Under the pieces are notes generated by a model that saw only the letters and a list, made by a program, of their open reading frames with translations, did not search any database and was not told where the DNA came from. Both the position numbers and the translations under genes were made by a program. Positions 1-24,047 of a stretch of DNA of 24,047 nucleotides are shown one piece after another; the first letter of the stretch is position 1, and the number at the start of each line of letters is the position of its first letter. The stretch is from a virus. The stretch spans positions 1 to 24,047 of the IMG/VR virus record IMGVR_UViG_3300037961_004350. One strand, written 5' to 3'.

Positions 1-540
1 CCGGAGTTCCCCGGCGTCCACGTTGTACCGCTCCACGGCTTCCGGTTCCGGCATCAGGTACACATGGCCCACGTAGCGCTGGGCGTCCCAGGACCCCGCC
101 GTGACGTCCAGGACGACTTCCCACGGGGCCAGGGCGGAAGTGGACACACGCTTCAGCGGGTCCACGGACTCCACCGGGGCCATCTTGATGAAGCTACACG
201 GGTAGATGAGGGACAGCCGCGTGGCGTCCTCCAGCTGTTCCCGGATGGTCAGGAGGTACTGGTTGGCCGTGGCCTCCGCCACCTCCGGGTTCCCCCGCGC
301 CCTAAGGTCCGGGGTCACCACCACGGATGGGTTCCGGGCGTACAGGCTGCCCAGGTACGACTCCACCACGGCGTACGCCTTGGGGACTTCCGTCCGCAGG
401 ATGGTGTCGTATATCTGGTCCTTCTCCCGCCAGAAGTCCGTCATGTACAGGGCCTTCAGGTCCTGCATCCGGCGCCGCTGGGCGTCCCAGTAGGCGTCAT
501 GGGCCTGGCAGATATCCCGGATGTCTGAAGGTTCGAGCAT
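1..540 (-). CDS. Portal protein, N-terminal part (cut by left edge)
   Basis: Reading left from an ATG at 540 the frame stays open for 180 codons to the window edge, so the C-terminal part is missing. The protein begins MLEPSDIRDICQAHDAYWDA and is rich in helix-forming and charged residues, followed by an amphipathic stretch (EVPKAYAVVESYLGSLYARN) and mixed alpha/beta sequence, typical of the outer wing region of podoviral portals. The portal forms the dodecameric ring at the capsid vertex through which TerL pumps DNA, and to which the tail adaptor binds. The start lies 12 nt after the TerL stop, with an AAGGA ribosome site overlapping that stop, so the two are translationally linked. The identification rests mainly on the order TerS-TerL-portal plus the look of the sequence; no single portal motif is decisive. 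Confidence 0.82.
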   Translation of the reverse strand, partial: MLEPSDIRDICQAHDAYWDAQRRRMQDLKALYMTDFWREKDQIYDTILRTEVPKAYAVVESYLGSLYARNPSVVVTPDLRARGNPEVAEATANQYLLTIREQLEDATRLSLIYPCSFIKMAPVESVDPLKRVSTSALAPWEVVLDVTAGSWDAQRYVGHVYLMPEPEAVERYNVDAGELR

Positions 541-552
541 AGCGGGCGGTCC

Positions 553-2121
553 TTAGAAGGGGAGACTGGAGGCCCTGATACGGCGGGCGCGGGCGGCGGT
601 CAACAGCTTGTCCACGCGGACACCCTTGGCGGCTACCGCGTGGTCCCTCCAGGATGGCGGGATGTCACGGAGACAGCGATACGCCAGGGCAAGGGCGACC
701 GCCGCATCATCATACCCCCCCGCGGGCGCCTCTGGAGCTACCTTACCTGTTGGAATCGTTAGGGAACGTAGTTCCAGCCACGTCACGCGGTCCATCATCC
801 GGATGACCCCCAAGGCCTCCCGCAACGTGTCGAACGCGTCCAGCTTGGACTGTAGGGTGGTGGTCCACGGCTTCCCCGTCCGTGGGTCCCGCCACTGGTT
901 CCGGTACCGCGTGTACCCCATCTCCAACAGGAAGGCGTGGCCGTGGTTGTTGGACTCGGCCAGGACCAGCGCCTGGTTGTACCGGCTGGCCACCTGGACG
1001 ACTCGGTGCGCCCACTGGGCTGGCGTCACGCGGTTGGACCGCTCCACGTACACGGGCTGCCGGGTAGCGACGGACACCACGGACAGGGCCGAGTAGTCCC
1101 CGCCCACCCCGCCGCCAATGTCCACGCCCATCACGTACTTGTCCGCGGGGTGGGGCGCTTCCAGTTCCCGGCCGCCGTTGGTGCCCAGGGCCTGGTGCTC
1201 CACCACGCTAATGTCCTGCATTACGGCGTCGTCGTAGTACCCGCCCTCACGTTCCAGGAAGCAATCGTCAAGACAGGCCGGATACTCCCTGGCAAACTTG
1301 TGACGGCTGCCCAGTTGCCCTATCTTCCGGCGTCTCCAGTGCAGCTGTCCGCGGTCCAGTGCGTACCGCTCGGCCAGGGCCTCCTCCTCCTCCGTGGGTT
1401 GGAAGTCCTCGGGGACCATCTCCGGAGCGTCCCGGTATGCGGGATGCTCCCACCACCACATGGTGAGAAGGTGCCAGCCGTTTTCCGGGGCGCCCATGAT
1501 GAGCCGCGCGTAATGGTCGCCCGGACTGTTGGCCGTGGACTCCGCTATCAGTAGGCCCTCCCCCACGGCGGCATCAGCCTGGGCCAGTACCTCCTCCAGG
1601 TCCGGAGCGTATGCGGCTTCCGAGATGAGAACGGCCGCGGGCGTAAACGAGCGGAGGCCCGTCTGGCTGCGGCTGGTGAACGCCTGAAGGGACGCGCCCG
1701 TGTCGGCGTACACGATACGGTTCCGGGCCTTAGTCTGGATGGGCCGGCGGAGGAGCTGCGGCGGGTCCTCCAGCCAGCGCCGACAGTCATCCAACAGCAT
1801 GGACGCGGAGTCGTCCCGCATGGACACCACGGCATGCATGGCCGCGTGTCTGGACGTGTACGCCATATGATGCAGGGCGAACTTGGCCCCCGTCGTGGCG
1901 GCCACCTGTCGGGCCTTGATGACCAGGATGCGATTGTGGCCGGCCTCGATGGCCTCGAAAATGCGCCGCTGCATGGGTAGCGGGTCGAACGGGATGGGCT
2001 TCTTACTGTCCTTGTCCTGGACCTTGTGAAGTTTGCAGAACACGGACGGGGTATTGACTAGGCCCACCACCCCTTCCACCAGGTCCTCCGGGATGGCGGC
2101 CGGAAGGTACGGGCGCGTCAT
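553..2121 (-). CDS. Terminase large subunit (TerL), packaging ATPase-nuclease
   Basis: The 522-residue protein cuts concatemeric phage DNA and drives it into the prohead through the portal. Residues 64-77 hold an adenine-binding/Walker A-like segment (ILVIKARQVAATT) of the RQ type. Residues 163-170 (AVLISEAA) are Walker B, with Ser-Glu in place of Asp-Glu, a variant also seen in other terminases. LIAESTAN at 191-198 is the coupling motif. The C-terminal RNase H-like nuclease shows D334 (GVDIGGG), E389 (LAES) and D471/D472 (GGYDDA). The open frame runs upstream to 2415, but I chose ATG 2121 because it overlaps the TerS stop as ATGA and because the upstream extension is low-complexity shadow sequence inside terS. 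Length is normal for the family. Confidence 0.95.
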   Translation of the reverse strand: MTRPYLPAAIPEDLVEGVVGLVNTPSVFCKLHKVQDKDSKKPIPFDPLPMQRRIFEAIEAGHNRILVIKARQVAATTGAKFALHHMAYTSRHAAMHAVVSMRDDSASMLLDDCRRWLEDPPQLLRRPIQTKARNRIVYADTGASLQAFTSRSQTGLRSFTPAAVLISEAAYAPDLEEVLAQADAAVGEGLLIAESTANSPGDHYARLIMGAPENGWHLLTMWWWEHPAYRDAPEMVPEDFQPTEEEEALAERYALDRGQLHWRRRKIGQLGSRHKFAREYPACLDDCFLEREGGYYDDAVMQDISVVEHQALGTNGGRELEAPHPADKYVMGVDIGGGVGGDYSALSVVSVATRQPVYVERSNRVTPAQWAHRVVQVASRYNQALVLAESNNHGHAFLLEMGYTRYRNQWRDPRTGKPWTTTLQSKLDAFDTLREALGVIRMMDRVTWLELRSLTIPTGKVAPEAPAGGYDDAAVALALAYRCLRDIPPSWRDHAVAAKGVRVDKLLTAARARRIRASSLPF

Positions 2122-2480
2122 GCGACGGACAACAGCGCTCGGAGTTCCGCCACGGCGCCGTCCTCTCCCGTGGGCGTGTCGGCCTCCGCTTCCATGGCGG
2201 CCTCCAGAACGAAGCGCGCCGCCAACAGCTGGGTCTGTTTCCCTGTCCCGCGAAGGCAGGCGGCCACGGCCTGGATGGCCTCCGGGGTCAGCCTGTCCAG
2301 TTCCCGGCGTACGTCCAGACGGGGGGGGGCGATGGTGGCCCGGTACTCCTCCCGCATGGCCTGGACGTTCCATCGCAGGACGGACTTCCGGGAACAAAGG
2401 CCCTGGGCAATACACTCGTCAATCGTGGAACCAAGTTCGAGCGCTTCAGCCACTCGCGTCTGGGTTGGGGTCAGTGCCAT
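2118..2480 (-). CDS. Putative terminase small subunit (TerS)
   Basis: A 120-residue protein directly upstream of TerL and overlapping it by 4 nt. Residues about 4-45 (LTPTQTRVAEALELGSTIDE and on through CSRKSVLRWNVQA) look like a helix-turn-helix, as in small terminases that recognise the packaging site. Residues about 55-100 are helical, fitting the oligomerisation part. Small terminases are poorly conserved, so the call leans on position, size and the N-terminal HTH. An AGGAC ribosome site precedes the ATG. The gene contains a run of nine C residues on the coding strand (plus-strand G9 at 2321-2329). The run is in frame here but could be a slippage site. Confidence 0.8.
   Translation of the reverse strand: MALTPTQTRVAEALELGSTIDECIAQGLCSRKSVLRWNVQAMREEYRATIAPPRLDVRRELDRLTPEAIQAVAACLRGTGKQTQLLAARFVLEAAMEAEADTPTGEDGAVAELRALLSVA
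2321..2329. repeat. G9/C9 homopolymer inside terS
   Basis: Nine consecutive G on the plus strand (C9 in the mRNA) code for Ala-Pro-Pro-Arg in TerS. It is the longest single-base run I see in the window. A -1 shift here enters the TerL frame, which is open from 2415 to its stop. It could also be a sequencing-length error, but the normal frame gives a plausible TerS. Confidence 0.8.
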
Positions 2481-2522
2481 GTCCTCGTCCTTCCCTGTCC
2501 CAGTGTGTCCGGGGTGCAGGGA

Positions 2523-3107
2523 TTACGAACGTAGCACGCTGGCCCCATGCTCTGGAGGCTGGAGGGCGGGGAACCATCGGCACCACTCCGGGCGCTGGCC
2601 GCTCCGGCAGTCGTCCACAAACCACGCCAGTACACCGTCGTGCCACTCGGTGGACGCCATTTGTCGGGACGCCATGGCCTCCAGTTCAGCGCGGGACATG
2701 CGGGTTCCATAGTGCAGCTGCGCGGCGTTCAGTTGCTGTCCTCTCGGACAGCCACATGTCACGGCGTAGGCGCGCACCCTCTCCACTCCTTTCCTACGGC
2801 TGTGCACGTAGGCCCGGAGCTGGCCGACTCCCCAACAGTGTGGGCAACGGCTGGAGGCCTTGATGATGCGGGCGTCACGTTCCTGGCCGGCCTCGGACTT
2901 CATGGTGGACCAGGTAGCGCGGAGCTCTGCGGGCGTGGGCCGGTACGTGGACGCGGCCAGCTGTCGTTCGACCAGCTCGCCAGCCCGGTCCCCGGCCTCC
3001 TCCAGTAGTGCGTGGATGGTGGGGCCGAGGAGCTCCCGGTAGTCCCGTGGGCTTCCCGGTCCGGGGAGGGCGGACAGTCGGGCCACCAGCTTCTGGGCGT
3101 CAGCCAT
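2523..3107 (-). CDS. Zinc-ribbon protein of unknown function
   Basis: A 194-residue protein, first gene of the terminase-portal cluster, starting with ATG at 3107 and ending 42 nt before terS. Residues 88-91 (CPHC, followed by WGVGQ) and 118-120 (CGC) form a four-cysteine zinc knuckle resembling the CxxCxGxG units of DnaJ-type zinc fingers. The N-terminal half is helical and rich in Ala/Glu/Arg; the C-terminal third is rich in Trp and Arg (W155, W162, W175, W178). Phage replication initiators or helicase loaders can carry such zinc knuckles, and no other replication gene is visible, but that role is only a guess. The 132-nt gap upstream (3108-3239) is less GC-rich than its surroundings around 3145-3180 and probably holds the promoter of the leftward operon. 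A TTGACG hexamer lies at 3177-3172, but I find no convincing -10 at the right spacing. Confidence 0.75.
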   Translation of the reverse strand: MADAQKLVARLSALPGPGSPRDYRELLGPTIHALLEEAGDRAGELVERQLAASTYRPTPAELRATWSTMKSEAGQERDARIIKASSRCPHCWGVGQLRAYVHSRRKGVERVRAYAVTCGCPRGQQLNAAQLHYGTRMSRAELEAMASRQMASTEWHDGVLAWFVDDCRSGQRPEWCRWFPALQPPEHGASVLRS

Positions 3108-3239
3108 GGGACACCCCGCGCGTGGTCCGTGGGTGCCGGCGTCGCATTGATTGAAAGATAGTACCCACCTGCGTCAAGTCGTCGGGGCTAAGTCCGCGGG
3201 ATGACGGGGGAAGGATTACCTGGGCCTGTGGCGCGCGGG

Positions 3240-3491
3240 TCACTCCTCACCACCCATCGGCGTGACGCCAACGACGCGAAGGGCCAGCTGGTCCAGTGGT
3301 ACTTCCAGGACCGCAGCCAGTGCCGGCCAGGCAGCCTGGGCGGGGGTCCGTTTCCCTGTGGCCCATCTCCAGACAGTCCGCCGGTCCACCTGGAATCCGG
3401 CAGCGGACAGCGCCGTGGCAAGGGCAGCCGGTCCAGTAAAACCCGCGCCCGTACAGCGCAGTTGGAGCCACTCGTGGAAAGGTACGTGCAT
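3240..3491 (-). CDS. Cro/CI-like helix-turn-helix transcriptional regulator
   Basis: An 83-residue protein beginning MHVPFHEWLQLR. Residues about 19-65 (GPAALATALSAAGFQVDRRT and on through VWRWATGKRTP to LEVP) form a classic XRE/Cro-type fold, with the recognition helix around VDRRTVWRWATGKR. The frame runs further upstream to 3614, but the ATG at 3491 has a GGAAG ribosome site at normal spacing, and a longer form would translate through the operator region. The gene is transcribed away from the early operon, and two 17-bp palindromes lie between it and that operon. The likely role is autoregulation and control of the early promoter. Whether it maintains lysogeny cannot be told: no integrase or antirepressor is visible. 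Confidence 0.88.
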   Translation of the reverse strand: MHVPFHEWLQLRCTGAGFTGPAALATALSAAGFQVDRRTVWRWATGKRTPAQAAWPALAAVLEVPLDQLALRVVGVTPMGGEE

Positions 3492-3525
3492 TTTTCTTCC
3501 GTTTTCTGTGTGTAAGGCCTTGCGT

Positions 3526-3542
3526 GTCGCCACGCCGGCGAC
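3526..3542. promoter_or_regulatory. Operator-like palindrome O1
   Basis: GTCGCCACGCCGGCGAC is an inverted repeat with 8-nt half sites around a central base, matching at six of eight arm positions. Its left half site is identical to that of the second palindrome 31 bp away. By position it would overlap a promoter beside the Cro-like regulator gene. Confidence 0.75.
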
Positions 3543-3556
3543 TAAACATGTAACAT

Positions 3557-3573
3557 GTCGCCACGGTGGCGAC
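3557..3573. promoter_or_regulatory. Operator-like palindrome O2
   Basis: GTCGCCACGGTGGCGAC is a perfect inverted repeat with 8-nt arms around a central G. The centres of O1 and O2 (3534 and 3565) are 31 bp apart, close to three helical turns, which would place two dimers on the same DNA face. I noticed no further copies elsewhere in the window. Confidence 0.8.
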
Positions 3574-3603
3574 GGTAAGACCACACATTCACAGGGACAC
3601 ACC

Positions 3604-3828
3604 ATGACCACCACCCCGATGATTCAGGCCGTTGCAGCGGCTCCGGACCACGTCCAGCTGTGCGCCGCATACCTGGCGGCCATCCCTGCCTGTTGCGACG
3701 CGGAATCACTGCGGGAGCTGGTGGAAGCATTCAACCAGAGCACGGTCCGTCTTGGTGAATCGCTGGACTTTGCACGGACTCAGCGGGCGCTGATGGACAT
3801 GCACCTGGCCAACAGCGCCCCCCAGTAG
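3604..3828 (+). CDS. Small early protein, unknown function (74 aa)
   Basis: First gene of the rightward early operon. The ATG at 3604 follows an AGGGA ribosome site. The frame is open far upstream (to 3262), but that part lies inside the regulator gene and the control region. The protein is mostly helical, with an Ala-rich N-terminus, a CC pair at residues 30-31 and a C-terminal amphipathic helix (ESLRELVEAFNQSTVRLGES). As the first product of the early promoter it is a candidate host-interaction or regulatory protein, but nothing in the sequence identifies it. Confidence 0.75.
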   Translation: MTTTPMIQAVAAAPDHVQLCAAYLAAIPACCDAESLRELVEAFNQSTVRLGESLDFARTQRALMDMHLANSAPQ

Positions 3829-3854
3829 AACCACCAACCACAGGACCCCACCCC

Positions 3855-3965
3855 ATGTCTGCACTTGCCTTCACACTCACAGCGCTGGGCCTTCTGGCCC
3901 TCGCCTTCATCCCACTGACGGCCCTGGCCGACTTCATCCACAACCACACGTACAAGGGGGATTGA
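3855..3965 (+). CDS. Tiny single-span membrane protein (36 aa)
   Basis: The ATG at 3855 opens a 36-codon frame starting MSALAFTLTALGLLALAFIP and ending in a short hydrophilic tail with HNHTYKGD. Residues about 3-25 form one hydrophobic span. It sits 26 nt after the preceding gene, and its TGA stop overlaps the ATG of the next gene (TGATG), which supports real translation. The ribosome site is weak (GGACC-like). Small early membrane proteins can act in superinfection exclusion or host takeover, but no function can be assigned here. Confidence 0.6.
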   Translation: MSALAFTLTALGLLALAFIPLTALADFIHNHTYKGD

Positions 3966-4333
3966 TGACACCCATGCGCCTGGCTTCCATTTTCACCGTC
4001 CTGGACACTTACGGGGTCCGGGACGTCCTCCGCGTTCAGTCCAGCGTCAACCCGCTGGACCCGGACAACCACACCACGGCCGTCTGGGTCCGTCCCTCGG
4101 ACTGGGTCAACGTGTACGACGCCATGTTTTACGCCATGGACGACGTCCCGGAGGTCCGCGCCTCGATGGCCACCACGGGCGGGGACATCACCGTGGCCCT
4201 TGAGGGCGACGGGTTCCGCGTGTTTGCGTGGTGGCCCATGAAGGACCTGGACAGCGTGGCGGAGCGGCTTCTGGCTGCCGGCGTGGACCAGAAAAAGGTG
4301 GACGCGTGGGCCGTCCTCGGGGGTGCCGCGTGA
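3965..4333 (+). CDS. Early protein, unknown function (122 aa)
   Basis: I chose ATG 3965, which overlaps the stop of the tiny membrane protein and follows a strong AAGGGGG ribosome site; a TTG one codon earlier is less likely. The protein has mixed alpha/beta character: a helix (MRLASIFTVLDTYGVRDVLR), then a segment with WVRPSDWVNVYDAMFYAMDD, then strands (GDITVALEGDGFRVFAWWP) and a C-terminal helix with a Lys-Lys-Val-Asp tail. I do not recognise the family. It ends in a GTGA overlap with the annealing protein gene, suggesting it is coexpressed with the recombination functions. Confidence 0.78.
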   Translation: MTPMRLASIFTVLDTYGVRDVLRVQSSVNPLDPDNHTTAVWVRPSDWVNVYDAMFYAMDDVPEVRASMATTGGDITVALEGDGFRVFAWWPMKDLDSVAERLLAAGVDQKKVDAWAVLGGAA

Positions 4334-4989
4334 ACACGTCCGACACCATCAACGAACTGGCCAAGGCCCTGGCCATCGCCCAGGCCTCCATGGGTCCGGC
4401 GCTCAAGGGCGCGAAGAACCCACATTTCCGTTCCAGCTACGCGGACCTGTCCAGCGTGGTGGAGGCCATCCGGGAGCCGTTCACGTCCAACGGCCTGGCC
4501 TGGGTCCAAGCGCCCAGCCTGGACCCGGACACAGGTCTGGTCACCGTGGCCACTCGCATCGTCCACAGTTCCGGCCAGTGGGTGGAGGCCAGCGTGTCCG
4601 CCATGCCGGGACGGGGTGGGAAGGCGGACCTGTCTCCCCAGGCCGTGGGGTCCGCTGTGACGTACCTGCGGCGCTACGGCCTCCAGGCCCTGGCTGGCGT
4701 CCCGTCGGCCGACGATGACGGGGAAGCCGCCATGGGTCGGGGTCGTCCGTCCCACAATGTCCCACAGCGGCGGGCGCCGGCTCCCGCTCCCGCGGCCCAG
4801 GGCCGCTGGTCAGACAAGGAGCGCGCGCGCTTCTGTGCTCGCCTTGGCGAGCTGGGCCTGGAGTATGAAGCCGTGGCGGAGTTCTGTGTGGCCAAGGGCC
4901 GCCCGCGTCCCTCCGTGATGGGTGAGGACCGCCGGAAGCAGCTCCTGACATACCTGGAGGATGCAGGCTTCAAGAAGTCGGAAGGATGA
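4330..4989 (+). CDS. ERF-family single-strand annealing protein
   Basis: ERF proteins anneal complementary single strands and promote phage recombination, concatemer formation and genome circularisation. The 219-residue product starts at GTG 4330, which overlaps the preceding stop as GTGA. Residues 6-60 match the ERF N-terminus (INELAKALAIAQ, NPHFRSSYADLSSVVEAIRE, NGLAWVQ). Residues 101-123 carry the family hallmark SPQAVGSAVTYLRRYGLQAL, followed by an acidic DDDGE. A Pro/Ala/Arg-rich linker (about 138-158) leads to a small C-terminal helical domain (about 159-219) ending in basic residues, probably a DNA- or partner-binding module. No phage SSB or exonuclease gene is recognisable next to it, so a host SSB would be used. 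Length is typical. Confidence 0.93.
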   Translation: MNTSDTINELAKALAIAQASMGPALKGAKNPHFRSSYADLSSVVEAIREPFTSNGLAWVQAPSLDPDTGLVTVATRIVHSSGQWVEASVSAMPGRGGKADLSPQAVGSAVTYLRRYGLQALAGVPSADDDGEAAMGRGRPSHNVPQRRAPAPAPAAQGRWSDKERARFCARLGELGLEYEAVAEFCVAKGRPRPSVMGEDRRKQLLTYLEDAGFKKSEG

Positions 4990-5504: not shown

Positions 5505-5515
5505 GGGACGACACG

Positions 5516-7113: not shown

Positions 7114-7493
7114 CTGAACTGGAACAGGTGGAACAGTGGTTGACGGCCTACGTGGCGGCCCAGCCCGGACCACAGTGGCCCCGGGACCCGGGCATCCACA
7201 CCAAGGCCGGGGACACGGCGTGGTCCAAGGGCGCGCGCTGGAGGTACAACGGCCGCGCGTGGACGCTGGACCTGGTCCCGGACGGCGTCCTGTTTGGGAA
7301 GTGTTGGGCGCTCGGCCTCCTCCACTGTGTCCCGGCGGAGCACATGCCGTTCATCACGCGAGACATGGGGGACCGTTGGGTGGTCCAGTTCCTGGTGGAC
7401 GGCCGGGACATCAGCGTGGCCCATGAGGACGCCGGTATGGCTGTGGGTCTGGCGTTCCGTCAGGCCTACGACGTGGGGCGCGACGGGAAGTAA
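7110..7493 (+). CDS. Early protein, last gene of the rightward operon (127 aa)
   Basis: ATG 7110 overlaps the preceding stop (ATGA) after an AAACGGGGG-rich ribosome site. The N-terminal helix (MTELEQVEQWLTAYVAAQPG) is followed by a Trp-rich beta segment (DTAWSKGARWRYNGRAWTLD) and a C-terminal half with a possible helix ending AFRQAYDVGRDGK. No recognised family. Its last 28 nt overlap the 3' end of the oppositely oriented M15 peptidase gene, so there is no room for a separate intergenic terminator. Confidence 0.76.
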   Translation: MTELEQVEQWLTAYVAAQPGPQWPRDPGIHTKAGDTAWSKGARWRYNGRAWTLDLVPDGVLFGKCWALGLLHCVPAEHMPFITRDMGDRWVVQFLVDGRDISVAHEDAGMAVGLAFRQAYDVGRDGK

Positions 7494-7945
7494 GTGGCGT
7501 ACCGCTTGGCCCCGCCGTCCCGGTAGCACTGAAGGAACTGGCCGCGCTGTCGGCCGTCCTTCCTGTGACTGACGTGGACGTGGCCACCTGTGTCCGCCGT
7601 GTACCATATGCACTGGTCCACGGGGAGTTCCATGGCGTGGATGAGGGCCGCCACCCTTTCCGCGTCGTGGTCGTTCACCAGCTTGATGTCCGCGGCCTCC
7701 CCGCTGACATGCTGGGACGTGGAAGACCCACCCACGGCCCGGTTCACGTCCGGCGCCCGGTACCCGCTGGTGATGCGGACGGGTCCTTCCTCCTCCCGGA
7801 GTGGGTCCAGGACAGTGGCCACCAGCTCCCGCAGGGCCGTCACGACTTGCGGGGGTGGCTGGTTGGGGTGGCCCATGTTGGCCGCGGCTGTCGAGCGTGT
7901 GAACTCGGACAGCGTAAAGTACCGGCCCAGCTTCTGGTCACTCAT
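7466..7945 (-). CDS. M15-family D-Ala-D-Ala carboxypeptidase-like endolysin
   Basis: The 159-residue product probably cleaves peptide crosslinks of host peptidoglycan at lysis. The zinc-site motif SxHxxGxAxD is at 77-86 (SQHVSGEAAD), with H79 and D86 as ligands. The third ligand lies in GHVHVS (H122 or H124). GYRAPDVN at 61-68 matches the conserved region before the zinc site. I chose ATG 7945, the Met of MSDQKLGRYFTLSEF, because it is the normal start of this family; the open frame further upstream overlaps the spanin-like gene. There is no signal peptide, so export would need a holin, and a candidate lies upstream. It is the last gene of the leftward unit. Confidence 0.9.
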   Translation of the reverse strand: MSDQKLGRYFTLSEFTRSTAAANMGHPNQPPPQVVTALRELVATVLDPLREEEGPVRITSGYRAPDVNRAVGGSSTSQHVSGEAADIKLVNDHDAERVAALIHAMELPVDQCIWYTADTGGHVHVSHRKDGRQRGQFLQCYRDGGAKRYATYFPSRPTS

Positions 7946-8336
7946 CCGTGCACCCCTTCGTCCAGCGTTCCACCAGCAGCGTCTGGAGGCCCGCCTCCTG
8001 GCAGCGTTGCGCATTGCTTTCCCCGTCACGGACACACCAGGCCCACGCGCACTGTGGCGACATGGGGTCCCCACCCAGTTCCGGGACGCATTGCGGCGGG
8101 GTGTCCGTCAGCTTGTCCGCCAGCATCGTCTCCCGTTGGGCATCTTCCACGGCCACACGGTTCACGGCGTCCACCAGTTCCTGGTTGGACTTGCCCAGGG
8201 CCTTGAGGCTGGCCGTGGACGCCTCGAGCGCTGCCACGCTGGCGTCCGGCTTCAGTCCCCACCCAGCGCCAAACCCAGCCGCGCCGGCCACGATGACAGC
8301 CACAGCCGCCCACGTCACGGGGTCCACGCTAGTCAT
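7938..8336 (-). CDS. Spanin-like (Rz-like) inner-membrane protein
   Basis: A 132-residue protein with one N-terminal membrane span (residues about 8-27, AAVAVIVAGAAGFGAGWGL), then a helical, probably periplasmic, segment (about 30-77) and a C-terminal third with five cysteines (83, 96, 101, 112, 129). One span plus a coiled helix beside an endolysin fits an inner-membrane spanin subunit. The cysteines suggest disulfides in the periplasm. I found no convincing embedded outer-membrane lipoprotein (no lipobox) in the other frame. It overlaps the endolysin gene by 8 nt. Other possibilities are a holin or an unrelated membrane protein. Confidence 0.65.
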   Translation of the reverse strand: MTSVDPVTWAAVAVIVAGAAGFGAGWGLKPDASVAALEASTASLKALGKSNQELVDAVNRVAVEDAQRETMLADKLTDTPPQCVPELGGDPMSPQCAWAWCVRDGESNAQRCQEAGLQTLLVERWTKGCTDE

Positions 8337-8463: not shown

Positions 8464-8464
8464 A

Positions 8465-10855: not shown

Positions 10856-13800
10856 CTACTCCCCGTCCGCTCCTTTAGCCAATGTTTCCGCGGCCTTAGT
10901 GGCCCGGAACTCCGGGTCGGCGGGCGCCACTTCCACGGGGAGCGCGGCCGCTGCTACGCCTGGCGCCCCACGGGGAAGGATGGCATCCGCAAACACACGT
11001 TGGGACGGGATGAGGGCCGACGAGAGCCGCAGGCCCGTTTCCGCCATGTCCGGCGTGATGGCCCGGAGGGCCTGGACGTTCCGCAGGCCGCGGCCGCTTG
11101 GCTTGATGACATAGAACCCGTCCGCGCCGTCCGTGGACTCCCCGCCCTTGACCTTGATGTAGGGCACACCCTCCGGAGGCTGTTGCGCCCACAGCCGTGG
11201 GTCGTCCACTAACTCCCCGGAATCATTGAAGGTTTGCAGGGCCAGACCTTCCGGAGGTGGCTGGTACTGTGGGTCCAGTAGGCTGTGGATGCCGCTGTAC
11301 CAGCCGGCGGCCCTGTCGGGGTCCAGTGCGTCCGCCGTCAACAGCATGGCGTAGAACACTTGCTCGTCCGACAGTTCCGCCATCTCCACGTTTCCGGGGT
11401 CATAATTGCCGGCCTCGTCCAGTCCCCCGATGATGTCCAGGATGCCCAAAACCTTGTCCACCATGTCCTCCGCTACCTGGGCGCCCGTCTCCCCCACACG
11501 CTCCCCGATGTACTGGGAGCCGTCGCCCCATCCCCGGCCGATGGCTTCCACCAGGTTGGCAGCCACGTAGTTCACGGCGCCGGCCGTGGTCAGTGCTATG
11601 TCAATGGGTGCAAACAGCGGGTTGGATGGGCCGTAGAACACGCGGCCGTCGTCCTCGTATCGGAGAAGCGTGCGCAGTTCATCGTCCCCGGCCAGTCCAT
11701 ACGGGTCCGCGGCCTGGGCCTTCCGCTGGTGGGCGCGGAGGATGGCGGTAACGGCGCCCGGGTTGTCCGCTACCTTGCCCACCATCTCCGCCAACAGCTG
11801 GTAATGCTGGGCGGCTGTGGCCACGTACTGGCCCAGCCAGTCCTGGACGGCATCCGGGACCTGGGCATAGTCCAGCTGGCTGCGACGGGCCAAGGCTGCG
11901 GCCTCCGCTGGTGGTTCCCCGGCAGCTAGCGCGGCTTCAAACACTCCCCGCCGGTACGTCAGCTCGATGGCCTCCGCCATGCGGGCGCCCAGGGACCGCG
12001 TGGCGGGGTTGGCTGCATCCAGCGCCCGCTGGAACCGTGGACCCAGGCCGGATTCCTGGGCGGACTTGCGGGCGGATACCAACAAGTCACTGGCCAGGCT
12101 GCCCACGCGCTCCGTCTCCAAGGCCGTGGCGCCCAGTCCGTATTGGTCGGCCAGGTCCGCGATATCGTCCGCGGTATACACGGTCCCATCCGGCGCCCGC
12201 AGGATTCCAGCATACCGCCGGTTCGACCACTGGCGCGGGTCCAAGCGCCGGCCCATCTGGCCCAGCGCCCGCGCCGTGTTCTGGACGCCGATAGTGGCCA
12301 GGGAAATGACAGGGGCCTGGACAAGTCGGCCCAACACTAACGGAAGGTTGGGGACGGCGTAGCCGTACCGCGCGTTGAACACAGCGTTCCGCGCCCACGT
12401 CACACCAGCGCGGCCAAGGTCCTGGGCCAGCTGTTGGAACCCGGCGCGCTGCATCACAGGGACGGAGTCCTGGATGGCGCTAAACATCTCGCCATGCTGG
12501 GCCAGCATGTTCTCGAAGTCGGACGCGGCCGTGTCGTACTGACGGACGACCCCGCGGACGCTGTCGGCCTGTGGGGCCAACGGGAGGCCGGGAGGCCGAG
12601 CGCGGCCAGCCAGCGCCATGGCATCGTCTTCCGCCCGGAGGATTCCCTGGCCCACGGCCTCCGCTTCCCGTCCCGCCGCGGCCAGGCCCTTGACCACGGA
12701 TTCTTCCATGAAGTTCTTGAGGAGCGCCAGCTGGACGTTCTCCTTGGACTTGGTGGACGCGATGAAGGATGCCGGACTGGCCCCGTCCCATCCCTTGACG
12801 ATGCCGGCGGCCACCAGCTGCCGGTCCAGGTCCAGAAGCCGCTGGACGGTTGGAAGTTCCTGGGAACCACGCAACAGCGGGGACACTGCGGCCCACAGTG
12901 CGTCAGGCTCCCCCGCATACAGGTAGGGCAGGACACGCTTCCACACGGATTCCGCGGCTTCCCCGCCGCTGGCCATCTCCGTCATCTCGTCCAGTGCCTT
13001 GTCCACGCTTCGATACTGGGCGGCCATCTCGTCCAGGACCTTCCCCGTAGTACGGAAGGCCGCGGACGTGGTGGCCCGGATGTTCTCGCGGGCGGCCTCC
13101 ACGGACAGCGGGGCGCGCTGGGCGGCCTGTCCACGCATGGCCCGGAGCCGGCGCCCCACCATCGTGTCCAAGGCCTTGGGGTTGTCCGCCCGGGCCACAA
13201 ACTTCTGGAGGTCTGAGAGCCGGCGGGATGCTGTGGCGACTCCCGGAGCGGCGCGGACTGCGGCCAGGCTCCGTATCTCCTCCAGGGCCAGCCGGAGCGT
13301 CTGTGGGTCCACGTCGTCCCAGGACGTCAGGCCCCGGAGGCTGGCCACGGGGGTGGGTGGTCCTGAAGGGTCTGGCGCCCAGGCCCTGGCTACCTCGTCC
13401 GGACTTGAACGCGTGTACAGCTGACCAGCGGCGCGGGGGTCCTCGTCCAAGGCCCGGGCGGCGCGCTCCACCAGGGAACGGGTAGCGCTCCCGCGCGCTG
13501 TGGCTGTGGCCGCGTCCAGGCCATTGGTGGCCACTTCCTGGACGATGTCATCAGCCGCGCGTCCGAGCTGGGCGGCCAGTGCCGCGTCCGTGCCGGCCAC
13601 GCGGGCCTGGATGCGCCGCAGTTCTCCAGCGATGGCGGGCGCGTCACGCTCCACGATGGTGGCCACTGTCCTGTTGGCGGCTTCCCGGATGGCGGGAGCG
13701 GCCGCGCGTGGTGCGGCTACGGCGTCCGTCACCATCACGAAGTCACCCGGAGTGTTCCGGACGATGGCTTCCTGCATCCGCAGGAATGTAGGGGCGGAGG

Positions 13801-15427
13801 TACGGAGCGCCCCGATAGGCGCGTCCGGGTCCTCCCCAATGGCCCGGGACACGGCGCGGGCCACCTCGTCCGCGCTCCGTCCATCGCTGGCCTTGATGGC
13901 GTCCAGTGCCGCGTTCGTGGCCTGTTCGCCCAGGACGATGCCTTCCCGGCGGACAATCTGTTCCGCTACTCGCTTGGTCAGTCGCGCGTCAGCCTGTGGT
14001 GTCCGAGATGCTGCGGCCGCAATATCCGCCGCGGCATTGATGACCCGGGAGTCCACGCTATCGGCGAAGCGGATGAGGTTCTGGGTCGGGGACAGGATGG
14101 GCGCGTACTTCCCCAGGAACGTGCCCAGCTTCTGGGACGTCTGGGCCGCGGCTCCGGGACCAACGGGAATCAACATCTCGCCCATGGTCCCCGCCCACCA
14201 AGCCGCGTCCTCGTCACCAAATACGCGGGCCATTTCCTCACGGAACACGGGGTTGGCGCGGGCCTCGTCACCAATGCCGCGGCCCACGGTGATGTTCTGG
14301 GCAAGGCGTCGGATGAACTCCGGGTCCTGGGATGCTACCCGGCGCTGTTCCGGGTCCATGCCGGACACCGTGGCCTCCAGCGGGGCCTCCTCTGGTACGC
14401 GCGCCGTGCGCTCCGTAGGCTGGCCCGGTAGCATGGCCGGCGCCACGGGCAAGGCCTCCACCACGGCTTCCAAGGCCTGACCAGTGGGCGCTCCGGTGGC
14501 CTCCTCAATACCGCCCGCGATGGTCCGGGGTACCGTCGTAATGACTCGCACAAGGTCCCGGGCCGACACTGTGTCAGGGACTCCCAGGCCGCGCCGCAGT
14601 TCCGCCACCTTGAACCCGAAGTCCTCCCGGTCCAACGGTTCCCCCGTCGTGGGGTCCACGTCGTACCCCAACGCGCCAAAATAAACCTCCCCAAACAGAC
14701 CCGACAGTGCGCCCAGGCCTCCCCGCATGGTGGCGGCCAGTGGCGTCTCCACGATGGCCCCCGTGTCCATCGGGCGGGACAGGACGCCGGACACCATGGC
14801 CTCCGGGCGTTCAAACTCCGGAAGCGGGCGGCCGGCGGCGCGGGCCTCCGCGATGGCCTGACGCTGGGCGGCCAGCTCTTCCCCACGGCGGCGCGCTTGT
14901 TCTTCCGTCATGACTGGCTGTTGGGCGAAGGCCTCCACCAGCTCCTCCCCCGCTGTAGGGGGGCGGAGGTCTCCGGTATCCGGGTCCAGGTACCGGCGTT
15001 CATAGCGGACGGGTTCCGCCAGCGGCCCTTCGTATACGGGGACCTGTCGCACGCGCGTGGGACGGAATGGCGGAAGGACCAGTGGGGGCGCCGCAAGCTT
15101 CAGCGGCTCACCCACCTGGCCTGTCACGTCCAGACGCTGGAGACGCTTCCGGCGCTCGTCTTCCAGGTTCTTCCGGTACTCGGCCTGTGCCGCTTCCGCG
15201 CGCTGACCGGCTGGCGTGGCGAAGTCGGGGAAGGCTGCCGCCGTCCGTTCCTGGGCTGCATCCCGGGCGTCCAGTTCAATCTGGGCGCGGCGCTGCAAAT
15301 CTCCAGGGAACTCCGGGAACGGCGCCGCGGCCTTGGGGGCGGGCGCAAGGCGCCGGGCCTCCTCCTCGTCCCGTCTGGCCAGTTCACGGCGGGCCAGCTC
15401 CGCCAGGGCCTGGTCCCGGACGCTCAC
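10856..15427 (-). CDS. Giant internal virion (ejection) protein, 1523 aa
   Basis: The product starts at GTG 15427, overlapping the preceding stop as GTGA. Residues 1-100 are charged helices (ARRELARRDEEEARRL), followed by long helical, Ala/Arg/Asp-rich sequence. Residues about 1027-1050 (NLPLVLGRLVQAPVISLATI) are the most hydrophobic part and could insert in a membrane. The segment about 1180-1215 (SQLDYAQVPDAVQDWLGQYV) matches in style the 'DYxxlxxxE...PF' region near the C-terminal end of large podoviral internal proteins. Size and position after two smaller helical proteins parallel T7 gp16, which forms the DNA ejection channel across the host envelope. I see no transglycosylase active site. 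It contains no cysteine and only four histidines. Confidence 0.82.
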   Translation of the reverse strand: MSVRDQALAELARRELARRDEEEARRLAPAPKAAAPFPEFPGDLQRRAQIELDARDAAQERTAAAFPDFATPAGQRAEAAQAEYRKNLEDERRKRLQRLDVTGQVGEPLKLAAPPLVLPPFRPTRVRQVPVYEGPLAEPVRYERRYLDPDTGDLRPPTAGEELVEAFAQQPVMTEEQARRRGEELAAQRQAIAEARAAGRPLPEFERPEAMVSGVLSRPMDTGAIVETPLAATMRGGLGALSGLFGEVYFGALGYDVDPTTGEPLDREDFGFKVAELRRGLGVPDTVSARDLVRVITTVPRTIAGGIEEATGAPTGQALEAVVEALPVAPAMLPGQPTERTARVPEEAPLEATVSGMDPEQRRVASQDPEFIRRLAQNITVGRGIGDEARANPVFREEMARVFGDEDAAWWAGTMGEMLIPVGPGAAAQTSQKLGTFLGKYAPILSPTQNLIRFADSVDSRVINAAADIAAAASRTPQADARLTKRVAEQIVRREGIVLGEQATNAALDAIKASDGRSADEVARAVSRAIGEDPDAPIGALRTSAPTFLRMQEAIVRNTPGDFVMVTDAVAAPRAAAPAIREAANRTVATIVERDAPAIAGELRRIQARVAGTDAALAAQLGRAADDIVQEVATNGLDAATATARGSATRSLVERAARALDEDPRAAGQLYTRSSPDEVARAWAPDPSGPPTPVASLRGLTSWDDVDPQTLRLALEEIRSLAAVRAAPGVATASRRLSDLQKFVARADNPKALDTMVGRRLRAMRGQAAQRAPLSVEAARENIRATTSAAFRTTGKVLDEMAAQYRSVDKALDEMTEMASGGEAAESVWKRVLPYLYAGEPDALWAAVSPLLRGSQELPTVQRLLDLDRQLVAAGIVKGWDGASPASFIASTKSKENVQLALLKNFMEESVVKGLAAAGREAEAVGQGILRAEDDAMALAGRARPPGLPLAPQADSVRGVVRQYDTAASDFENMLAQHGEMFSAIQDSVPVMQRAGFQQLAQDLGRAGVTWARNAVFNARYGYAVPNLPLVLGRLVQAPVISLATIGVQNTARALGQMGRRLDPRQWSNRRYAGILRAPDGTVYTADDIADLADQYGLGATALETERVGSLASDLLVSARKSAQESGLGPRFQRALDAANPATRSLGARMAEAIELTYRRGVFEAALAAGEPPAEAAALARRSQLDYAQVPDAVQDWLGQYVATAAQHYQLLAEMVGKVADNPGAVTAILRAHQRKAQAADPYGLAGDDELRTLLRYEDDGRVFYGPSNPLFAPIDIALTTAGAVNYVAANLVEAIGRGWGDGSQYIGERVGETGAQVAEDMVDKVLGILDIIGGLDEAGNYDPGNVEMAELSDEQVFYAMLLTADALDPDRAAGWYSGIHSLLDPQYQPPPEGLALQTFNDSGELVDDPRLWAQQPPEGVPYIKVKGGESTDGADGFYVIKPSGRGLRNVQALRAITPDMAETGLRLSSALIPSQRVFADAILPRGAPGVAAAALPVEVAPADPEFRATKAAETLAKGADGE

Positions 15428-19565: not shown

Positions 19566-19574
19566 GCGGCCCTC

Positions 19575-20267
19575 CTACTTGTACCGGGCGATGGCCAGGA
19601 CTTTGTTGCCCCACAAGTGGGCCTGCATCAGGTGGAAGCCGGACGGCCCGTTGTCCACGATGGCGTCGTCCTGTCCTGCCGGGGTGTACCTCCACTGAAA
19701 CTGGACTTCAAGGTCCCCCTGTGGGTATAGGCCTCCCCCGAAAATCCTGAATGATGCCATGGACTTAGCGGTCCCCTGACGCTCCACCATGGTCACGCCA
19801 CCCACCTGGATGCGGAGCCGCATATATTTGGCGTTTGGGGGGTGGTTATTGTTCTGGGTCTGCTGAAACCCGGGGAAGATGGATGCCTGGCCGCTCCACT
19901 CAATATGGAGATGGCCACCACGGAACCCCGTCAGCGTCTCCGTGTACGCCGTCTCCCATCCGCCGCTGTACAGCTGGTACGTGATGGCCAGGAACTGGTC
20001 CCCCCTGTTGTTGGCCGTGTCCATCCGGACGTTGGTCTGTTCGCCCTGGGTGGTACCCGTGCCCCACATGGGGTTCGAGCTGGTCCCACTCGTCCAGACC
20101 TGGTGGAGAGCGTACTGGCCCACGTTGGTGGGGTCGTACTGGCGGTCCGGCGTCTGGGTGCGGTCCAGTGTGGTGATGGCGGACTGGCTGGCCCTCATCT
20201 CCGCGTTCAGCTGGTCCGCTTCCGCCGTTTGGCCGCTCCGCGCTTGGTGTTCCGTCCAGTACTTCAT
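19575..20267 (-). CDS. Structural protein, fibre or decoration-like (230 aa)
   Basis: ATG 20267 overlaps the nozzle stop as ATGA. Begins MKYWTEHQARSGQTAEADQL; the SGQTAEADQLN part matches the N-terminal motif of the two genes that follow. Residues about 45-230 are beta-rich (GQYALHQVWTSGTSS; FLAITYQLYSGGWET; GDLEVQFQWRYTP). Being translationally coupled to the tail nozzle suggests a component of the tail tip. No family is recognised. Confidence 0.72.
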   Translation of the reverse strand: MKYWTEHQARSGQTAEADQLNAEMRASQSAITTLDRTQTPDRQYDPTNVGQYALHQVWTSGTSSNPMWGTGTTQGEQTNVRMDTANNRGDQFLAITYQLYSGGWETAYTETLTGFRGGHLHIEWSGQASIFPGFQQTQNNNHPPNAKYMRLRIQVGGVTMVERQGTAKSMASFRIFGGGLYPQGDLEVQFQWRYTPAGQDDAIVDNGPSGFHLMQAHLWGNKVLAIARYK

Positions 20268-22423
20268 CCCCGTTTCCCCGCGATGGTGTTGGTTCCGGGT
20301 AGCCGGTACTCGACTTCCCAGCCCACCAGAAGAAGGTCGTCCGTGGTGGAGACTTCCAGCGCGAACCACGCACAGGACTGCTGGGCGACACCGATACGAA
20401 GGGGGACCAGCTGGGTGTCCTCCCATACGTCCGTCCCAATGGTGGCGGAGTCGTATACGGGAAGGTTGGCCGCGTCTGGTGGCTGGGCCAGGTAGGGCCG
20501 ACAGGCCAGACCCTCCCGCTGAAAGTCCTTGTAGGCCTCCGCGGTGATGTTGACGCTACCCGTCGTCATGGCCCACAGCGTGGCGTACTGGACCCGCTTC
20601 TGGAGCTGGGCGTCCCCAAGGTCCAGCCAGGCCGTCTTGATGATGGACGTGGGCGGACCGTTTTCCACGTAGGCGTCCCCCACGATGGAGCCGCCCATGG
20701 CGCGGCGCCCGGAGATAACAAACAGGCCCGCGGGGTCGTCATTGCCCGGGGCGCTTCCCGTGTTGTGGCCAAATATCAGTTGGCCGTTGTGGAGCCGGTC
20801 CAGGCTACCCACGGGGAACCCGGTGCGTGTGCTCCATCCTTCCTTTTCCGTGTGGAACACCACGCCCAGGTTTGGCCGGTCGTTCCCGTCCACTGGGACG
20901 TACAGGTGGTACGCGCGGTCCATCGGGGAGTACCGGCCCACGGCCCGGGCTGCACAGTCCGGGGTCAGTCGCCGTAGCGTCCGCTTGATGGGTTCCGACA
21001 GCCGCAGGACCTGCATTTCGGAGCCGCCATCGAAGCCACCCTGGAGGGCGTACACGCCGTCCTGGGCCAGGAACACCACGCCCAGGCCGGGGACCTGGTC
21101 CACGGTGTGAGGACTGCGACAGGCCACCTGGGACGTGACAGTGGTGGCCTGGAAGCCGTTGGTGAAGTCACCAGACACCACGTCCACGCCGTTCTCCCGC
21201 AGGACGACGAGCACACGGTAATGGCTGAACAGCCGTACAACGGCGCCACCTGGAGCGGCCAGCCGGATGTAACTGGCCGCGCCGAACTGGTCCGGAAGGC
21301 CGGGGTGGCTGAAGTACAGCGTGTTGGGGTCCTCGGGGCCACCATCCAGGAAAAGGCAGTCTTGGAACACTGCGGCGGTACCAGCCCGCGGGGAAGGGAG
21401 CGGGATGGACTCAGTAAGGGCCGGGGCCAGCGCGCCCACGGCCGTGGAGCGGTACGGGTCAAACCATAGGTCGTCGGTGTTGTTCCGGACCGTGTCCAAC
21501 AGGTACAGGTCCGTGTCCCCATAGGTGGGGGAGTCCACGCTGGTGTTCTGGGTCCGGTACACGCGGCGGGCCACCACGCCCGGAGGGCCAAGCGGGAGCC
21601 GCATGGCCACACAGTAGCGGAACCCCTCCGTGTTGCCTTCCAGGACCCACGATACGGCCACCTCGTCCGATAGCGGGGACTCGCTTCCGTTCTCCATCAG
21701 GAAGGACACGCGGTACCGGAAGTCCGCGGCCTGGCCGTCCGCGCTGGTGGTGTTGTTGGCGAAGCCCAGCCCGTAGGCCTTGGGGAGTCGGATGGCGCCC
21801 CGCCCATCGGGCCACCACAGGGTCACACTGTCACCCGTCACCGTGTCGGACGATGCAGCGGGGGCGCCGGCCGCGCTGGTGATGGTCTGGACGTCCAGAA
21901 GGTCCGGGCTGGGTGCCTTGGATGTCCAGCCCAGCGGGCGGACGACACCAACACCCACCGCCGTGGCCACGTAAGTCCGGTCCGGAAGGGGCCAGGGCCG
22001 GACCACTACGGGGGTGTCTCGTCCGTTGGTGACCAGGACAGCGTCCCCCACGACTGTGTACTGGCTGGCCGCTTCACCCGGAGCAGGGACGGTGCGCCCA
22101 GCCTGGAGGGCAAACAGGACGCCCTCCGCGCCCACTTCCCAGAACAGGTACAGCGTCCCGCCGGACTCGAACAGGATGGAGTACCGCCGGCCTCCGGGGA
22201 GCTGCTCGAAAACAAACAGGCTGTCAATGGGGCCAAGGTTGTGGAACGGCTCAAACCGGAACGCGGGGTTGGGCCTGTACTTCTCGAACCCCACGCGCGT
22301 GGACCAGCCGAACGTGGCCGGGTCCACTGTCACGTTCTCCAGCCGCGTGAATGCGTCCGCCGGCTGTGGCAGGAACTCGACAACGGCGCCCAGCTCCCGG
22401 AACTGTTGGGTGATTCCCTGCAT
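20264..22423 (-). CDS. Tail nozzle protein (tail tubular protein B / T7 gp12-like)
   Basis: The 719-residue product is close to T7 gp12 in size and follows the adaptor gene, as in T7. MQGITQQFRELGAVVEFLPQ at the start, then successive strand-rich blades: SLFVFEQLPGGRRYSILFES, TLYLFWEVGAEGVLFALQAG, YTVVGDAVLVTNGRDTPVVV, FRYRVSFLMENGSESPLSDE, GTAAVFQDCLFLDGGPEDPN, VLVVLRENGVDVVSGDF, LGVVFLAQDGVYALQGGFDG and YSPMDRAYHLYVPVDG. These suit the beta-propeller platform and nozzle of podoviral tails. The nozzle hexamer forms the distal tube below the adaptor and holds fibres. ATG 22423 is 6 nt after the adaptor stop. Confidence 0.9.
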   Translation of the reverse strand: MQGITQQFRELGAVVEFLPQPADAFTRLENVTVDPATFGWSTRVGFEKYRPNPAFRFEPFHNLGPIDSLFVFEQLPGGRRYSILFESGGTLYLFWEVGAEGVLFALQAGRTVPAPGEAASQYTVVGDAVLVTNGRDTPVVVRPWPLPDRTYVATAVGVGVVRPLGWTSKAPSPDLLDVQTITSAAGAPAASSDTVTGDSVTLWWPDGRGAIRLPKAYGLGFANNTTSADGQAADFRYRVSFLMENGSESPLSDEVAVSWVLEGNTEGFRYCVAMRLPLGPPGVVARRVYRTQNTSVDSPTYGDTDLYLLDTVRNNTDDLWFDPYRSTAVGALAPALTESIPLPSPRAGTAAVFQDCLFLDGGPEDPNTLYFSHPGLPDQFGAASYIRLAAPGGAVVRLFSHYRVLVVLRENGVDVVSGDFTNGFQATTVTSQVACRSPHTVDQVPGLGVVFLAQDGVYALQGGFDGGSEMQVLRLSEPIKRTLRRLTPDCAARAVGRYSPMDRAYHLYVPVDGNDRPNLGVVFHTEKEGWSTRTGFPVGSLDRLHNGQLIFGHNTGSAPGNDDPAGLFVISGRRAMGGSIVGDAYVENGPPTSIIKTAWLDLGDAQLQKRVQYATLWAMTTGSVNITAEAYKDFQREGLACRPYLAQPPDAANLPVYDSATIGTDVWEDTQLVPLRIGVAQQSCAWFALEVSTTDDLLLVGWEVEYRLPGTNTIAGKRG

Positions 22424-22429
22424 GGCGTC

Positions 22430-23791
22430 CTACGGGGTGTAGATGAGTGGGCCGTAGATGTTGGGGTACACCTGGAAGTCCGCCCCGCCGCGCTGGATGC
22501 GCCGGGGTGGCTGGCCCAGATACCGCGCTTCCATCTCCCGCGTAAGCGTCGTCCGCTTTCGCTGGTAAACCGCGCTCAGTGCGGGGTTGTCGTGTTTTAG
22601 CGTGACCTGCTCAAGCGCCGCGTACGCGATGGCCTGGGCGAAGGCTGCCGGGACCAGTGGGATGTCCGTGTCCTCCCGCATGGGGCGCGGGGCCACCAGC
22701 CGGCGGACGGACACGTCCGTGTCCGCGCTTGGGTGCGGGTACAACATGAAGGACGGGTACACGCCGTTGGCATCCTGGTAGCGGATGGCGCTGGCCTGGA
22801 ATGACTGGCCCTCGAGGACGGACAGCCGCGTGTCCGGAACCAGCGTGACACCACCAGCCGGGGCCACTGTGTCCGTGTTGGCCGTGATGCCGCCGCTCCC
22901 ATCATGGCGGAGCCGCTGGGGTGCATTGATGCCCAACGACGGCGCCGTGAAGTAGTACCGGCGATAGAGGCCCGTGCTACTTGGGACCGTCTCCGGGGTG
23001 AGGTTTAGCTCCTCGTTGTCCTGTAGCGTGATGGTCAGGACGGCCGACAGTGCCGACTCCAGGCCGGCGGACACGCCTGGCCCGTAGGATTCCGGAGTGT
23101 ATGACCCAGGTCCCCACACGTTGACCATGTAGATATTCAGGGTGCGGACACCACGGCCAGCGCCCGGGGTGGCCACGGTGACCCCGCGGGCCTTCCGGGG
23201 TGCGGGAAGGCGAGCGCCCTGGCTGGGCAGGTAGGCCTCCGGGGTGCCCAATAGGTCCCGGTCAAGTCGGGCCAGGTCACGCTGGAACTTGGACAGCTGG
23301 AACTGTGGGGTGGGTAGCCCCGTGTCCATGTCGTTGACCATCATAATGGTGGCCGTGTCCCCGGGTAGGAATACCTCCCGCTGTTTGATGGTCACGGCAT
23401 AGGTACCCGTGGCGCCCTGGAAGTCCCTGTCCAGGAACAGCTGGGAAGCGCCGGACACGTAGCGGACCCGGTATTCCCCCTCCAGGCCATTGGCGTCCGT
23501 GATGGTGACGGTTCCACCTTCCCACGGGGAGCCGGGGAGGACCGTGGACGAGCTGACGGGGAACCCGGAGCCGGCCACAGTGGCGGAGCCGTTGGACACG
23601 CTGAAGGAGCTGGTGGCGTCCGTGGGGACTGTCACCGTGGCTTCCTTCTGGCAGAACATCCAGGCCCGGTCCGTCAGGAGGCGCGTCTGGGCGTCGTTAA
23701 GCAGGTTGTCCAGCTGCTCGTCGTACGTGCTGTTGGTGGGGTCGTAGTCCAGGAGGTTCCCGACATACGCGCGGAGGTCTGCGAGGTTCAC
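22430..23791 (-). CDS. Head-tail adaptor (tail tubular protein A / gp11-like), long form
   Basis: GTG 23791 with an AGTAGGAG ribosome site starts MNLADLRAYVGNLLDYDPTN. Residues 1-46 (then STYDEQLDNLLNDAQTRLLT, DRAW) are the helical head of gp11-type adaptors that bind the portal. Residues about 335-430 (RYQDANGVYPSFMLYPHPSA; VPAAFAQAIAYAALEQVTL; VYQRKRTTLTREMEARY) form the helical second half. The approximately 290 residues between are strand-rich. T7 gp11 is about 196 residues and P22 gp4 about 166, so this 453-residue form carries a large insertion or extra domains. Adaptor identity is supported by its position before the nozzle gene. Confidence 0.85.
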   Translation of the reverse strand: MNLADLRAYVGNLLDYDPTNSTYDEQLDNLLNDAQTRLLTDRAWMFCQKEATVTVPTDATSSFSVSNGSATVAGSGFPVSSSTVLPGSPWEGGTVTITDANGLEGEYRVRYVSGASQLFLDRDFQGATGTYAVTIKQREVFLPGDTATIMMVNDMDTGLPTPQFQLSKFQRDLARLDRDLLGTPEAYLPSQGARLPAPRKARGVTVATPGAGRGVRTLNIYMVNVWGPGSYTPESYGPGVSAGLESALSAVLTITLQDNEELNLTPETVPSSTGLYRRYYFTAPSLGINAPQRLRHDGSGGITANTDTVAPAGGVTLVPDTRLSVLEGQSFQASAIRYQDANGVYPSFMLYPHPSADTDVSVRRLVAPRPMREDTDIPLVPAAFAQAIAYAALEQVTLKHDNPALSAVYQRKRTTLTREMEARYLGQPPRRIQRGGADFQVYPNIYGPLIYTP

Positions 23792-23809
23792 TCTGGACTC
23801 CTACTGAAA

Positions 23810-23841
23810 GGCCCCGGCGCCCACAGGTAAGCGCCGGGGCC
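23810..23841 (-). terminator. Strong hairpin between capsid-side genes and tail genes
   Basis: GGCCCCGGCGC (23810-23820) and its exact reverse complement (23831-23841) form an 11-bp, almost all G:C stem around a 10-nt loop. In the direction of transcription it is followed by only TTT (23809-23807), then directly by the ribosome site of the adaptor. It could be a partial terminator reducing tail gene expression relative to capsid genes, or a processing or stabilising hairpin. Confidence 0.75.
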
Positions 23842-23871
23842 AGTGTAGCGCGGGGGAGCGCTACGGAGTGG

Positions 23872-24047
23872 TCACAGGGACGGAATGACCCACACGTCCG
23901 CCGCGTTGGAAGCTGCATCTTCCAGAGCGATGGCCGCAATGTTGACGTTGGCCGCATCAGCGATGGTCGCACGCCCGGACGTGGTGGTGTCCAGTGCGAG
24001 GGCCAGACCGCTGGTGGCGCCCGTGGCGACGTTGGCGCCTTCTGCGT
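23872..24047 (-). CDS. 3' end of probable capsid decoration/head protein (cut by right edge)
   Basis: Reading left from the right edge, one frame gives 57 residues ending at TGA 23872-23874: ATSGLALALDTTTSGRATIA, then DAANVNIAAIALEDAASNAA and DVWVIPSL. This Ala/Thr-rich strand pattern, with 'IALEDAA...VWVIP' at the end, resembles the C-terminus of small phage head decoration proteins that sit on the capsid. It could instead be the end of a major capsid protein. The 80 nt after the stop hold the strong hairpin before the adaptor gene. Confidence 0.6.
   Translation of the reverse strand, partial: AEGANVATGATSGLALALDTTTSGRATIADAANVNIAAIALEDAASNAADVWVIPSL

Follow-up and report, generated by a model that had tools for sequence, protein, structure and literature searches.

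A 24,047-bp stretch of viral DNA, the entire IMG/VR record IMGVR_UViG_3300037961_004350 (hereafter the window), contains not a single GATC, and purifying selection against this word is ongoing in its lineage. The original prediction had described GATC as wholly absent from these 24 kb, and the exact count of 0 bears this out. We think it probable that a lytic-type phage lineage lost all of its GATC sites by purifying selection in a host population carrying a GATC-recognising restriction activity, where both the enzyme and the host are ones that we infer.

The GATC-free record and its genes

The window has no end repeats; it starts inside a portal gene and ends past a conserved 453-aa gene. Because nine long relatives share a layout of 28-32 kb, it would amount to about 80% of the genome of a lytic-type phage, with about 20%, including the capsid gene, missing. 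Three relatives (G449, 30,081 bp; G442, 31,614 bp; and G008, 28,097 bp) carry repeats of 99 or 127 bases at their ends, which suggests that these are complete genomes. The phage family is unclassified and comprises ~250 contigs in IMG/VR. The features of the window are as follows (coordinates, strand, description).

1..24047 (.): GATC-free stretch, the whole record
1..540 (-): portal protein, C-terminal 180 aa (family cluster 2; the remainder lies off the record); the G449 homologue matches portal family phrog_156
553..2109 (-): terminase large subunit, conserved core (518 aa), from phrog_2 (E 5e-28), PF17289 and alignment
4228..4989 (+): ERF-family single-strand annealing recombinase (PF04404, E 8.6e-23)
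7466..8074 (-): peptidase M15, probable endolysin (PF08291, E 4e-19)
10856..15427 (-): 1,523-aa virion-region protein, conserved in 10 of 10 long records; closest relative L147 (90% aa)
20264..22423 (-): virion/tail protein with weak amidase/tail matches (phrog_5107, E 1e-11)
22430..23791 (-): conserved 453-aa structural-region protein, a marker for the closest relatives (94-98% aa)

The listed start of the terminase ORF, at 2415, is probably too early, since relatives have stops upstream of the core. Relatives, rather than the window, also show portal, capsid, VapE-type helicase and RecE-type exonuclease genes, and no tRNA genes were found in the window or in 33 family loci. Named phages and plasmids are very distant (terminase identity of 21-30% at most), and three structural-region proteins of the window (453-1,523 aa) have no match among named phages.

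A tyrosine integrase (PF00589) was found in none of 35 family phage records, including the terminal-repeat genomes G449 and G442. This absence, which concerns integrases of the tyrosine type, may point to a lytic life, for a window that is incomplete and a family in which one relative has left prophage remnants in a MAG; it fits the rule that full elimination of a site is typical of non-temperate phages (PMC6286503).

Selection against GATC in the window and its relatives

Base composition predicts 72.6 GATC sites in the window, and Markov expectations for all tetramers, which the original prediction had proposed as a check, place GATC at 54.0 under the maximal-order (trinucleotide) model (z -10.5), far from zero. 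At 0 of 54 the word is eliminated (obs/expected below 0.1 with an expectation above 15); it has the lowest z of the 256 tetramers and is the only one with a count of zero. Its near neighbours are present (GATA 30, GATG 176 and GATT 26), and CTAG, earlier said to occur at least three times, occurs exactly three times. When synonymous codons were shuffled with the proteins kept, 19 ORFs picked by codon composition yielded 60.3 +/- 6.1 GATC sites (minimum 42 in 500 runs), and a second shuffle, of 22 mostly homology-supported ORFs, gave an expectation of 64.4 (minimum 48 in 300 runs). The loss is apparent in every one of the three reading frames of the window's genes. Isoleucine is never encoded by ATC after a codon ending in G (0/15, with ATT or ATA in 15/15), as compared to 119/137 after C; aspartate before C is GAC in 113/113 cases, and serine after xGA is AGY in 9/9 and TCN in 0/9. 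Selection thus acts on GATC as a DNA word, in all frames and at synonymous positions, and not on protein or codon usage. A library artefact can be dismissed, as other family contigs with the same metagenome identifiers have normal GATC; metagenome 3300006810 holds contigs with observed/expected counts of 25/43 (L022) and 28/32 (L060) alongside one with 5/42 (L029).

To follow this selection in close relatives, every codon that differs between the window and a given relative was taken, and its change was re-placed on random window codons of the same kind (500 placements). The relative L147 is 93% identical in DNA to the window over 11.7 kb and differs by 597 changed codons, which would be expected to create 11.4 +/- 3.1 GATC sites; none is observed. 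The corresponding expectations are 9.7 (L152), 9.0 (L153), 12.8 (L167) and 7.5 (L002), again with none observed in any of them. Across four close relatives (597, 432, 506 and 636 codon changes), there are 0 new GATC sites against 9-13 expected, and zero was reached in 0/500 placements; for L002, it was reached in 1/500. In L147 and L152, the counts of eleven control palindromic tetramers match expectation or come close to it, with CTAG somewhat low among them (3 vs 7 +/- 2 in L147 and 2 vs 4 +/- 2 in L152). Purifying selection against GATC is therefore ongoing in the window's lineage.

The sister lineage behaves differently. L001, L149 and L166 are ~89-90% identical to the window in the terminase or the 453-aa protein, and they hold normal numbers of GATC (observed/expected 24/30, 50/51 and 22/21, respectively). 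By codon-change placement, GATC stands at 27 vs 24 +/- 4 expected in L149 and at 15 vs 13 +/- 3 in L166. Within the window's own clade, ten records lack GATC entirely (L002, L003, L147, L152, L153, L154, L156, L159, L160 and L167) and three have 2-5 sites each (L004, L157 and G029). The zero counts in close relatives, together with the neutral counts in L149 and L166, indicate that the force is at work in the window's lineage but absent from the sister lineage. The G+C content of the normal-GATC lineage is 0.59-0.63, as compared to 0.66-0.69 in the GATC-poor lineage, a difference that suggests a different host. At the four GATC sites in the terminase and portal genes of L001, few as they are, GATC-free relatives differ by both synonymous and amino-acid changes.

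The same switching extends across the family. A terminase profile scan of IMG/VR returned 250 related loci, and the best 80 of 250 were taken for comparison. The ratio of observed to expected GATC spans 0, in 14 contigs including the window, to 1.2 (G019, 250/213), and one complete 30 kb family genome has 0/90.6. In a tree of 91 terminase rows, accounting for the near-zero contigs (a ratio of no more than 0.06) takes 9 changes, of which well-supported branches force 8, whereas shuffled labels take 17.3; these change counts are rough, as they depend on thresholds applied to sometimes short contigs. GATC loss switches lineage by lineage within the family.

Other missing palindromes and the agent of selection

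GATC is not the only word that the family has lost. Among the 256 tetramers tested in 91 records, only GATC (23/86 records) and CTAG (20/30) are repeatedly eliminated (obs/expected below 0.12), with AATT eliminated in 3/11. AGCT is lost in a single record, L018 (positions 1-10194), where it stands at 0/28 expected, with palindromic hexamers at 0.28 and GATC at 0.34 of expectation. Hexamers were examined at expectations of at least 6, with GATC and CTAG cores left out and elimination defined as an obs/expected below 0.15. By this measure, 97/882 palindromic hexamers are eliminated vs 72/42,490 non-palindromic ones, an odds ratio of 73; since the records are related, the nominal p of 1e-118 overstates the case, whereas the ratio itself is not in doubt. 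Mirror-symmetric hexamers, which served as the control, average 0.96 of expectation. In the branch formed by L089, L095 and L096, palindromic hexamers have fallen to only 0.21-0.27 of the expected number. The window itself has lost GGGCCC (0/20 expected), with hexamer palindromes otherwise near normal (0.83 by Markov, 0.94 by codon shuffle). The loss of GGGCCC is common to its near kin G029 (1/24), L003, L004 and L147, and the word is kept in L153, L160, L167 and L002 (8/7 in L002, which is also GATC-free). Other Type II palindromes are likewise eliminated in the family, and they differ by lineage.

In the whole records L095 and L096, and in L089 and L012, 6-bp palindromes stand at 0.21-0.38 vs 0.81-0.92 for the mirror-hexamer controls. 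In L012 (a 22.7 kb contig, of which 19.3 kb was read), 20/29 testable palindromic hexamers are absent or nearly so; these four records appear to have undergone a broad-spectrum purge of restriction sites. CACGTG is nearly gone from the window (1 vs 12.7 by Markov or 6.9 by codon shuffle).

Under Type II restriction, different branches would be expected to lose a variety of palindromes, as is seen here, and restriction is, from this lineage-by-lineage purging, the better supported agent. The simplest candidate would be a Type II enzyme like Sau3AI, MboI or DpnII. A new GATC mutation would leave incoming unmodified phage DNA open to cutting and the variant would be removed, so that the genome would be kept clean of GATC through synonymous and small amino-acid changes. 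Of the earlier proposal that restriction or a Dam-type signal had selected against GATC, the selection on the word holds and is ongoing, and restriction gains from the other purged palindromes; the specific type of enzyme did not follow.

Dam/MutH mismatch repair has been proposed for enterobacteriophages and phiX174, with host MutH nicking phage DNA at GATC sites that are unmethylated or hemimethylated; it is an unlikely agent here. The 5.4 kb phiX174 has no GATC vs ~20 expected, and the site feeds methyl-directed repair (PMC5014478). GATC is also purged in far more members of the family than any other 4-bp palindrome except CTAG, as a GATC-specific process would give. However, Dam/MutH repair predicts the loss of GATC alone, whereas the family also purges AGCT, many palindromic hexamers and GGGCCC, the last from the window itself, and these are words that MutH does not see. 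Moreover, no MutH-family match was found in the Gemmatimonadota MAG G030, and such matches in 395 Gemmatimonadota genomes are only double-domain enzymes of the Sau3AI type. It is possible that GATC was lost to one force and the other palindromes to another.

At least as improbable is a host that cuts modified GATC (by a DpnI-type or Mrr-type Type IV enzyme) or that practises phosphorothioation-linked GATC restriction, with the phage avoiding the word to escape. Such cutting has been invoked for the GATC-free HF1-group haloviruses (PMC7230728), and 46/46 phages whose hosts have the corresponding enzyme are short of GATC, a Type IIM site (PMC6286503), but phage DNA would have to be methylated in one host and then cut in the next, unless the host carries a dnd locus.

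That base composition, codon usage or a host-like mutation bias removed GATC with no selection at all is scarcely credible, for although most members of the family, like many bacteria, are poor in CTAG and AATT, the Markov expectation, the codon-shuffle minima, the close sisters with neutral GATC and the zero gains in close relatives stand against it, and codon shuffle and codon-change placement refute composition and codon usage as the cause.

Protection by the phage's own methylation was also considered. No adenine methyltransferase match (PF02086 or PF01555) was found in the window; PF02086 is absent from 59 phage records searched, and PF01555 is represented by one enzyme (L062) in 46. These counts lead us to reject a phage methyltransferase as the reason that some relatives keep GATC, and there is no sign that self-modification of phage DNA serves as an alternative strategy. 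The single PF01555 DNA methyltransferase gene among the searched family records (L118, 1456-2655) lies immediately downstream of the L062 terminase.

Host leads and known systems

GATC had been expected to give a handle on the host, and it yields a weak lead to Gemmatimonadota only. The sole genome match is a terminase fragment in a Gemmatimonadota MAG chromosome (G030, CP070815.1) that is 70% identical to the window and, over 200 columns, 98% identical to viral contig L025. Scattered prophage remnants of the family occur in the Gemmatimonadota MAG (L030 7000-19000, L116 and L139), which also carries another terminase, less closely related; the MAG and its prophage remnant have GATC at expectation, ~8 per kb. 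Because a close terminase occurs in only 1/395 Gemmatimonadota genomes, and the tetranucleotide signature of the window correlates with that of MAG G030 at only 0.37, the phylum is a lead for the host of the window's lineage and not established. Other routes to the host were rejected: terminases of named phages and plasmids, at the 21-30% identity given above; the capsid, with one weak match (Myxococcus phage Mx9); the ERF recombinase, whose matches spread over many hosts; and spacers, for which 20 kb of the window gave background matches in 395 Gemmatimonadota genomes, the best spacer-sized one (G037, 32 bp) lying in no repeat array.

A Sau3AI-type GATC endonuclease occurs in 3/395 Gemmatimonadota genomes, all three distinct from the MAG above. 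A two-domain protein of this family finds its best solved-structure match in Sau3AI (4pxg, E 8e-36) and scores 279 bits against the NCBIfam Sau3AI model, below its cut-off of 300, and G156 has a C5 cytosine methyltransferase gene ~0.4 kb from its Sau3AI-type gene. The three genomes and the G156 methyltransferase thus indicate, from gene content, that GATC enzymes of the needed kind occur in the phylum. Against the restriction account, DpnII-family enzymes above cut-off number 0/395, and the three Sau3AI-type genomes are unlinked to the window phage. Genomes with Sau3AI-type genes are also strongly depleted in CATG, by observed/expected counts per 20 kb (G103, L177 and L179: 2/69 and 2/58; G034, L178 and L180: 15/59 and 21/74).

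Elimination of restriction sites is already well documented in HF1-group haloviruses (PMC7230728) and phiX174 (PMC5014478). GATC is absent in 7/7 HF1-group isolates, one of which has also lost AGCT, many 6-bp palindromes are absent, and the proviruses keep GATC at 0.45 of expectation (PMC7230728). The window's family closely resembles this group: both are dsDNA viruses with members that have lost GATC, a single member without AGCT, numerous missing hexamers and integrated relatives that keep GATC. However, the haloviruses are archaeal myoviruses of ~70-78 kb in which CTAG is also zero and which often encode their own N6-methyltransferase, whereas the window's family has genomes of ~30 kb, presumed bacterial hosts and GATC that ranges from zero to above expectation in close relatives. 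phiX174 shares the absence of GATC with the window, but it is a ssDNA phage of a Dam/MutH host, discussed mainly in terms of mismatch repair (PMC5014478). A 2018 survey found elimination to be typical of non-temperate dsDNA phages and orthodox Type II sites, with GATC low in 46/46 phages of enzyme-encoding hosts (PMC6286503); the window likewise eliminates a Type II site, although the host enzyme is known in the survey cases and presumed here.

The window is a clean, well-controlled further case of known viral evasion of restriction sites. Words missing from the genomes of uncultured phages can expose host defences without culturing, and the comparison of closely matched sister lineages, with zero and with neutral GATC, tells selection apart from composition. 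Across the family it is palindromes that are lost, which speaks for restriction rather than mismatch repair, two accounts that one genome on its own, phiX174 for instance, leaves undistinguished. Whether the whole family should be read as a replicated natural experiment in restriction evasion is, in our judgement, evenly balanced; on that reading, GATC has been repeatedly purged and retained on the tree, GGGCCC and AGCT lost in single branches and L089, L095 and L096 nearly stripped of palindromic hexamers, and the missing words would record the enzymes that each lineage recently met.
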